In this document: in pieces, positions 21,066-21,201 of the stretch
Layout of the letters: each line of letters begins with the position of its first letter
Numbering within the stretch: the first letter of the stretch is position 1
Source of the DNA: Roseateles violae
GTDB lineage: Bacteria > Pseudomonadota > Gammaproteobacteria > Burkholderiales > Burkholderiaceae_C
Assembly (NCBI RefSeq): GCF_030410485.1
Contig: NZ_JAUHHC010000001.1
Coordinates: 1 to 64,000 of the forward strand
Length of the DNA: 64,000 bases
Direction: 5' to 3'
Notes under the pieces: generated by a model
The model's database searches: none
Told to the model about the DNA's origin: nothing
Seen by the model: the letters and a program-made list of their open reading frames with translations, nothing else
Program-made: the position numbers and the translations under genes

Positions 21066-21102
21066 AAAAAAAAGCCCCGGCCGATATCGATCAGGCCGGG
21101 GC
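21066..21102 (-). terminator. Intrinsic terminator of the putative small RNA
   Basis: GCCCCGGCC and GGCCGGGGC (21074-21082 and 21094-21102) pair over nine base pairs with an 11-base loop, followed on the minus strand by U8. On the plus strand no U-tract follows, so it acts on leftward transcription. No annotated leftward gene precedes it, which is why a small RNA gene is proposed. Confidence 0.8.
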
Positions 21103-21187
21103 GGCAAAGCCTTATCGCTGTCATCACGCTAAGGCTCCTGCTCAGGGAGGAAAAGCAGGGAATGACCACCTTGCGGCTATCATTCAT
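21066..21187 (-). ncRNA. Putative small RNA antisense to the hemB upstream region
   Basis: On the minus strand about 120 nt fold into four consecutive hairpins. The first, at the predicted 5' end, is AAUGA-UA-GCC-GCAA-GGU-GG-UCAUU, with a GNRA tetraloop. The second is CCUGCU...AGCAGG with an 11-nt loop containing CCUCCC, an anti-Shine-Dalgarno-like sequence. The third is CCUUA...UAAGG. The fourth is a nine-base-pair GC hairpin followed by eight U residues. An extended -10 element lies immediately upstream. No protein-coding frame of note lies inside on this strand. From memory, a conserved hemB-associated RNA motif has been reported in Burkholderiales; I cannot tell whether this is the same element. 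Confidence 0.62.
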
Positions 21188-21192
21188 CGATA

Positions 21193-21201
21193 AGTTTAGC
21201 A
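21193..21201 (-). promoter_or_regulatory. Extended -10 promoter for the putative small RNA
   Basis: The minus strand reads TGC-TAAACT, an extended -10 (TGn plus four-of-six-type hexamer). Transcription would begin near 21186, right at the first hairpin. The -35 position (TTTCGG at 17 bases) is poor, as is acceptable with an extended -10. Confidence 0.4.

Follow-up and report, generated by a model that had tools for sequence, protein, structure and literature searches.

A small RNA gene between hemB and hemJ

The window analysed here is the whole 64,000-nucleotide stretch of Roseateles violae DNA. Its minus strand carries a small RNA (sRNA) gene that is flanked by the divergent hemB gene and, downstream on the same strand, by hemJ, a gene of the PF03653/UPF0093 family (Table 1). 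The minus strand of 21060–21201 folds into four hairpins at -57.5 kcal/mol, with a z-score of -4.29 and none of 200 shuffled sequences folding as well. As the preliminary description of this DNA had proposed, the first hairpin has a GCAA loop, the second exposes CCUCCC, and the fourth, a GC-rich stem of 9+3 bp followed by U8, is a strong leftward intrinsic terminator. The same description held that this terminator has no leftward gene to end, which is incorrect, since hemJ starts 147 nt past the U-run on the same strand. The 5′ end of the RNA would be near 21186, and the 3′ end is placed at the U-run.

A simple consensus scan for promoters and terminators listed neither the promoter nor the terminator of the sRNA, presumably because of its rules for the -35 element and for loop length. 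The case for an independent minus-strand sRNA with an anti-Shine-Dalgarno-type loop, as first described, is carried by the fold, the match to Rfam family RF02837 and the conservation presented below. Between the sRNA terminator and hemJ (20932–21065), more GC-rich palindromes were seen by eye.

Table 1. Features at the sRNA locus of the window
Feature	Position	Strand	Evidence
hemB, delta-aminolevulinic acid dehydratase, divergently transcribed, with an assumed TTG start	21321..22334	+	Pfam PF00490 (ALAD), 463.7 bits
Extended -10 TGCTAAACT, housekeeping sigma type, without clear -35	21193..21201	-	sequence, conservation in the window's family
Small RNA gene, about 118-122 nt	21066..21187	-	RF02837 match 21066-21161, R1 match 21067-21187, fold z -4.29
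Hairpin 1, GCAA loop, outside the Rfam model	21160..21185	-	fold, stem search with shuffles
Hairpin 2, loop UUCCUCCCU at 21144-21152, candidate target-binding site	21137..21159	-	fold, loop conservation, both stem arms altered in some copies
Hairpin 3	21108..21136	-	fold, both stem arms altered in some copies
Intrinsic terminator, GC-rich stem 21074-21102 and U8 21066-21073	21066..21102	-	fold, sequence
CATAAT -10-like hexamer, 6 nt upstream of the ATG of hemJ (20917-20931 including ATG)	20926..20931	-	conserved in the window's family
hemJ (UPF0093), co-directional downstream gene	20491..20919	-	Pfam PF03653, 138.2 bits

The element matches the Rfam covariance model RF02837 (anti-hemB) over its full length (model positions 1–81 of 81; 62.6 bits, cut-off 49.5). 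It is a catalogued sRNA of the anti-hemB type and known in kind, and it is the kind of hemB-associated motif that the preliminary description had mentioned for Burkholderiales. The label "unannotated" given there suits the copy in the window; it does not suit the family, which is already in Rfam. By alignment and fold, the structural features of anti-hemB are present, namely a hairpin with the UCCUCCCUGA loop, a second hairpin, and a terminator with its U-run, and hemB adjoins the sRNA on the opposite strand, as in anti-hemB. Other Rfam models (ncS025, sok, Spot 42, NsiR1, sX11, snoZ178, and suhB) gave weak scores in the window, all below cut-off, and these were taken as generic or chance matches. 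The same genome holds a second anti-hemB copy at C11:283804-283891 (positions 1501–1588 of locus L002; 58.1 bits), which adjoins an ORF that by eye resembles a metallo-beta-lactamase-fold hydrolase.

In Burkholderia cenocepacia, anti-hemB corresponds to ncS04, which the relevant sections of PMC5688073 describe as an RNA of 105 nt with a 3′ end determined by RACE, a Northern blot, and cited binding to Hfq. Co-purification of ncS04 with Hfq is recorded in the pertinent parts of PMC5688073 and PMC4603805, and the latter gives it one divergent and one convergent neighbour. In Table 2 of PMC5688073, none of 7 conditions, low iron among them, changes ncS04 significantly. Anti-hemB is also listed for another Burkholderia in a section of PMC3521395; the "anti-hemB" of PMC6515984 is an antibody and not the RNA, and a term search found hemB unmentioned in PMC10987360, a review of such sRNAs, and in PMC2864571. 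The literature searched gave no tested function for anti-hemB; computed targets of ncS04 are given in the supplement of PMC5688073.

Conservation, gene neighbourhood, and promoter type

RF02837 was found over cut-off in 31 of 40 relatives, 79 of 100 genomes of the family, 190 of 300 of the order, and 14 of 274 of the class, each count including the window's own genome. At E<=1e-7, the class sample gave 50 of 274 genomes, 48 of the 50 lying outside the window's family. A phylum sample gave 10 of 249 genomes at E<=1e-6, all within the class, in an output that does not itemise the other classes sampled. None of 14 control genomes matched over cut-off or at E<=1e-6 or 1e-7, and three matched at E<=0.001. 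A scan of named records for the exact hairpin 2 sequence gave at least 119 stretches, 80 of them listed; among the matches listed are Burkholderia, Paraburkholderia, Pandoraea, Variovorax, Polaromonas, Nitrosospira, Thiobacillus, and Methylovorus. Several genomes carry tandem or multiple copies (6 RF02837 matches in genome G256, 2 copies each in G653 and G542, and 2 in Nitrosospira briensis, L222), and with profile R1, introduced below, genomes G563 and G654 each show 4 copies close together. A record titled Klebsiella pneumoniae MAG (L247) has a hemB-sRNA-engB locus of the betaproteobacterial kind and is probably a mislabelled bin.

Gene neighbourhoods were compared by tblastn. The queries were PolA and EngB (YihA) of the E. 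coli spf region, together with HemB and HemJ of the window. The loci are mostly the best-scoring matches of each search, together with 20 lower-scoring matches from the order and the remaining class matches, and are not a random sample. Six loci (L088, L091, L098, L099, L102, and L104) were dropped as duplicates, and the over-cut-off ErsA locus (L095) was kept apart; 4 of the 53 gammaproteobacterial loci (L097, L100, L101, and L103) come from the ErsA model alone, and L096 has ErsA-model coordinates. Across 43 loci of the window's family, hemB is divergent in 33, hemJ is co-directional and downstream in 32, and engB or polA is found in none. Among 61 loci from other Burkholderiales, engB is adjacent in 58 (downstream and convergent in 46 of the 61, upstream in 10, and overlapping at the 3′ end in 2). 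The fetched flank contains polA and/or engB in 45 of the 53 gammaproteobacterial loci. In the window's family, hemJ occupies the former place of engB.

As for hemB, it is simply a neighbour of the sRNA, present at 48 of the 61 other Burkholderiales loci versus 0 of the 53 gammaproteobacterial ones. It is absent from the fetched flank in 10 of 43, 13 of 61, and 53 of 53 loci of the three groups, counts in which some flanks end at contig ends and in one of which (L084/L178) hemB lies further off. The RF02837-like RNAs of many gammaproteobacteria lie in the polA–engB gap, which is the locus of Spot 42 and ErsA: Spot 42 sits in this gap in E. coli and, according to a part of PMC3295665, in Aliivibrio too; ersA is placed there in PMC8575079, and ErsA is termed a functional orthologue of Spot 42 in a section of the review PMC8395346.

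The stems of the preliminary description still pair in relatives in which both arms have changed. In alignment A1, 10 of the 16 consensus pairs predicted for hairpins 2–4 are kept through such changes in at least one sequence; the covariation term is small (-0.68 kcal/mol). RNAalifold did not recover hairpin 1 from A1, apparently because MAFFT had misaligned it between groups, and we therefore used a stem search in each sequence. This search picks the best stem per sequence, in shuffles too, so that its pairs are of standard types from the outset and what matters is solely how far the copies exceed the shuffles: a stem score of at least 14 was reached in 38 of 43 copies of the window's family, 47 of 61 from other Burkholderiales, and 45 of 48 from gammaproteobacteria (7.2, 7.2, and 6.7 in shuffles). 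RF02837 begins at the 3′ edge of hairpin 1; this conserved 5′ hairpin, absent from the Rfam model, is new here. By a crude pattern, its loop is GNRA in 13, CTTG in 5, TTCG in 5, and another sequence in 20 of the 43 family copies, a variability that fits a protective cap better than a binding site. The hairpin 2 loop CTCCCTGA is found in all 43 family copies, in 58 of 61 from other Burkholderiales, and in 31 of 48 from gammaproteobacteria. A second C-rich stretch (such as UCCCCUUU) occurs in the terminator loop or the 3′ half of some copies, for example at L003, L040, and L042; a simple pattern finds it in 15 of 61 copies from other Burkholderiales, 20 of 48 from gammaproteobacteria, and 0 of 43 from the window's family.

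Promoters recognised by sigma-E/AlgU have the consensus GAACTT-N16-TC. A GAAC[TC] motif lies upstream of 56 of 60 copies from other Burkholderiales, 41 of 48 from gammaproteobacteria, and 7 of 43 from the window's family (8.0, 6.6, and 3.9 in shuffles), and the strict two-part form is present in 27, 29, and 1 of them (0.5, 0.4, and 0.1 in shuffles). The extended -10 that had been noticed before the window's sRNA is indeed there, and the type, TGNTANANT, recurs in 27 of 43 family copies, compared with 0 of 60 and 3 of 48 in the other Burkholderiales and the gammaproteobacteria (0.6, 1.2, and 0.8 in shuffles). These promoter counts omit L096, L097, L100, L101, L103, and one Burkholderiales locus whose upstream stretch is shorter than 90 nt. 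Sorted by neighbour, the 119 named loci divide into 60 beside engB (30 sigma-E-type, 20 with a GAAACT variant, and 10 other), 45 beside hemJ (22 with the extended -10, 4 sigma-E-type, 3 GAAACT, and 16 other), and 13 with neither (5 sigma-E-type, 2 GAAACT, and 6 other), one flank being too short. Burkholderia and its near kin carry the GAAACT variant rather than the plain motif.

The over-cut-off ErsA of genome G554 carries the sigma-E-type GAAC[TC] motif and, since AlgU governs the transcription of ErsA (parts of PMC8395346 and PMC5819304), serves as a positive control for it. By eye, the two over-cut-off sX13 genes have no GAAC[TC] -35 at the sigma-E-type position; hence, the sigma-E -35 was lost more than once or is not ancestral to all. 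RpoE (TIGR02939) matched at E<=0.001 in all 40 genomes searched, the window's own included, and was over cut-off in 34; matches also occur in 8 of the 14 control genomes, one of which is over cut-off. In the window's family, 19 of 24 genomes exceed the cut-off of 236.15 bits, the window's own (233.4) and G001 (235.0) fall just below it, and G007, G013, and G021 (loci L012, L010, and L009) reach at most 100 bits. The family mostly retains RpoE, which may have been lost or changed in the last three genomes. The sRNAs of these three closely resemble the window's copy. Taken together, the promoter types suggest that the window's family swapped a sigma-E-type promoter for one that would be read by a housekeeping-type sigma factor where hemJ replaced engB. 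With such a promoter, the sRNA of this family is probably not induced by envelope stress any more.

Similarity to ErsA and sX13

In the class sample, the ErsA model RF01719 matched 10 of 274 genomes at E<=0.001, one of them (G554) over cut-off. engB lies within the 1.5 kb flank of all nine other matches (9/9); at G554 itself (L095), polA was found and engB was not found in the 9 kb fetched. Five RF01719 matches (G448, G457, G548, G563, and G658) coincide with RF02837 places. The sX13 model RF02232 matched 12 of 274 genomes, two of them over cut-off (G557 and G405). Five of the ten weak matches (G563, G475, G529, G625, and G414) fall on RF02837 or R1 places, a further one (G465) lies about 40 nt from such a place, and four (G515, G408, G457, and G623) coincide with neither. 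G563 has four tandem copies, and each of the three Rfam models matches one, RF02232 matching a different copy than the other two models do. RF02837 and RF01719 show no clan in Rfam 15.

Profile R1 was built from 25 gammaproteobacterial RF02837 places; it has 16 base pairs and includes neither the neighbouring genes nor the -35 element. It scores the window at 54.9 bits, the G554 ErsA at 33.5 bits, and the sX13 genes at 29.4 and 27.0 bits, and its ErsA and sX13 matches fall where the Rfam models place them. The best off-target match reached 19.4 bits in 616 kb, a control that consists of 69 of the 119 named loci and the window and is all or nearly all Burkholderiales DNA. In the class sample, 131 of 274 genomes have an R1 match at E<=1e-5, the 25 training genomes included. 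From the places found by R1 and missed by RF02837 at E<=1e-7, a part of the R1 places in the class, 40 were fetched and one (G460) was dropped as an RF02837 place. polA or engB is present in the fetched flank of 34 of the remaining 39 (engB 30, polA 25, and both 21), and GAAC[TC] lies just upstream in 30, where random windows taken from these loci would give 2.9.

As one profile detects the window, ErsA, and sX13 above noise, the three look like one superfamily. Since the R1 training set includes four RF01719 matches (G448, G457, G548, and G658) and one RF02232 match (G475), the profile is partly dependent on these models. In the sX13 genome G405, the place that R1 reported, at 37.4 bits, is a different one from the sX13 gene; weak R1 matches are therefore by themselves no proof of membership, and scores of 27–33 bits are not unique genome-wide. 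The window's own genome has no match to RF01719 or RF02232 at E<=0.001 (cut-off 50 each), so that it is connected with ErsA and sX13 by way of intermediates and R1. R1 found nothing up to E 10 at the spf (Spot 42) locus of E. coli, and Spot 42 thus shares the locus only; the window scores 21.9 bits with the Spot 42 model RF00021 (cut-off 80). A literature search that left aside most subscription journals and bioRxiv preprints found no paper linking anti-hemB to ErsA or sX13.

Candidate mechanism, rival readings, and known systems

The best explanation, and one that we consider likely, is that the window encodes a trans-acting anti-hemB sRNA of an ancient superfamily whose loop is directed against ribosome-binding sites. 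It builds on the structure, family match, conservation, synteny, promoter types, and profile link to ErsA and sX13 computed here. The RNA would be transcribed leftward from its own promoter and end at its own terminator, with the stable 5′ hairpin capping its end; expression in the window's organism is presumed. The C-rich loop of hairpin 2 (CUCCCUGA), which is nearly invariant in Burkholderiales, would pair in trans with several mRNAs at their G-rich ribosome-binding regions, lowering translation, and the U-tailed terminator would permit binding of Hfq, which is likewise presumed for this organism. The proposed superfamily would include ErsA of Pseudomonas and sX13 of Xanthomonas, and would occupy the polA–engB gap in many gammaproteobacteria and the hemB–engB gap in most other sampled Burkholderiales.

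By analogy, repression at ribosome-binding sites by the window's RNA may resemble that by sX13, which depends on C-rich loops and on G-rich motifs close to the start codon (results given in PMC3771888), and that envisaged for the CU-rich sRNAs of B. cenocepacia, whose predicted pairing often covers the ribosome-binding site (a section of PMC5688073). The mode may differ between members, given that ErsA is predicted to bind anr via a U-rich single-stranded part (as stated within PMC8575079) and that sX13 is reported to be Hfq-independent. The window's own genome contains 73 sites complementary to the extended loop with at most 2 mismatches, versus 29 for a reversed control; 2 of the 73 are the sRNA genes themselves, and the 28 sites that were read included no convincing target. 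One site (L364) is 5 nt upstream of the ATG that opens a 500-aa ORF and two lie before ORFs of 108 and 90 aa (L354 and L359); none of the three was counted as a target. Two other functions were considered and rejected by eye: titration of CsrA, as the sole AGGA sits where hairpins 2 and 3 meet and not in a loop, and a small protein from an AUG near the 5′ end, as neither start nor frame is kept in relatives.

The name anti-hemB points at haem, and the preliminary description had suggested haem or iron control from the position beside two haem genes. A haem-specific regulator that would control, through base pairing, either hemJ or hemB (the latter as an antisense of the hemB 5′ leader) is nevertheless very unlikely. 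The sRNA does adjoin both genes, as at the 33 and 32 family loci counted above, and its loop could pair with the window's hemJ start region at -11.1 kcal/mol, a value reached by 4.3% of random windows. Among 32 loci, however, this pairing has a median rank of 0.72 and is at or below 0.05 in only 2, the window being one of the two, so that it is not conserved. Moreover, a -10-like hexamer lies 5–9 nt before the ATG in 31 of 32 family hemJ starts (0.44% of random ATGs) and a Shine-Dalgarno-like motif precedes hemJ in only 1 of 32; judged from these motifs, hemJ is probably transcribed in the window's family from a promoter of its own and as a leaderless mRNA, and would then offer the loop no ribosome-binding site to block. 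The start region of hemB is average as a partner (51.6% of random windows are as good), many copies have no hemB in the fetched flank, including all 53 gammaproteobacterial ones, and ncS04 was unmoved by low iron in the table cited above (PMC5688073). The suggestion of haem or iron control is accordingly not supported. It is also very unlikely that the element is an attenuator in the 5′ leader of hemJ, with transcripts from the sRNA promoter reading past the terminator into hemJ under some condition. The two genes do share a strand with just 147 nt from the U-run to the hemJ start, and hemJ comes next at 32 of 43 family loci, but hemJ has the -10-like hexamer of its own, and the convergent engB downstream of 46 of 61 other Burkholderiales loci means that read-through there would be antisense. 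The folds examined for an anti-terminator were the minimum-energy and centroid structures.

A trans-acting sRNA thus remains our preferred reading, and on its origin we lean towards common descent: anti-hemB, ErsA, and sX13 would derive from one sigma-E envelope-stress sRNA at the polA/engB locus of a beta/gammaproteobacterial ancestor, with Spot 42 perhaps a much-altered enterobacterial occupant, and the comamonad-type family of the window would have given up sigma-E control for a housekeeping promoter, with no change to the C-rich loop in any of its 43 copies. That the three are convergent, any sRNA with a C-rich loop and a GC-rich terminator scoring alike, is unlikely. C-rich loops do recur in the sRNAs of distant bacteria (noted within PMC3771888), the window also scores weakly with ncS025, Spot 42, and sX11, below cut-off, two gammaproteobacterial loci score weakly with suhB and RF02278, and R1 has just its 16 base pairs. 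Convergence is opposed, however, by the locus common to several of the sets, by the shared sigma-E-type promoter at distances within a narrow range, by the tandem locus in G563 that all three Rfam models match, and by the noise ceiling of R1 in Burkholderiales DNA.

Grouped with ErsA and sX13, anti-hemB gains a mechanism that can be tested, sigma-E as an ancestral trigger equally open to test, and model systems. RF02837, RF01719, and RF02232 may belong together, and an extension of RF02837 to hairpin 1 seems warranted. The data also suggest that a widespread sRNA changed its promoter type in one large family of Burkholderiales.

Among the known systems, Spot 42 (RF00021) occupies the same polA–engB locus in E. 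coli as the gammaproteobacterial members but, unlike the superfamily, has no C-rich loop by eye. sX13 (RF02232) resembles the window's RNA in its C-rich loops and terminator, and it adjoins polA; it differs in having three stem-loops after an unstructured 5′ part and in its reported independence of Hfq (both from sections of PMC3771888). ErsA (Pseudomon-1, RF01719) shares the 5′ hairpin, the C-rich loops, and the terminator and lies at the polA locus, whereas the over-cut-off ErsA (L095) has no recognisable hairpin 2 by eye. Its sigma-E-type promoter is common to most sampled superfamily members outside the window's family; in contrast, the window has an extended -10. Anti-hemB/ncS04 differs from the window's RNA in that the Rfam model does not include hairpin 1 and in that the window has hemJ downstream, not engB, and a second copy in its genome, yet the two agree in the full-length, over-cut-off match, the hemB neighbour, the loop, and a similar gene size.
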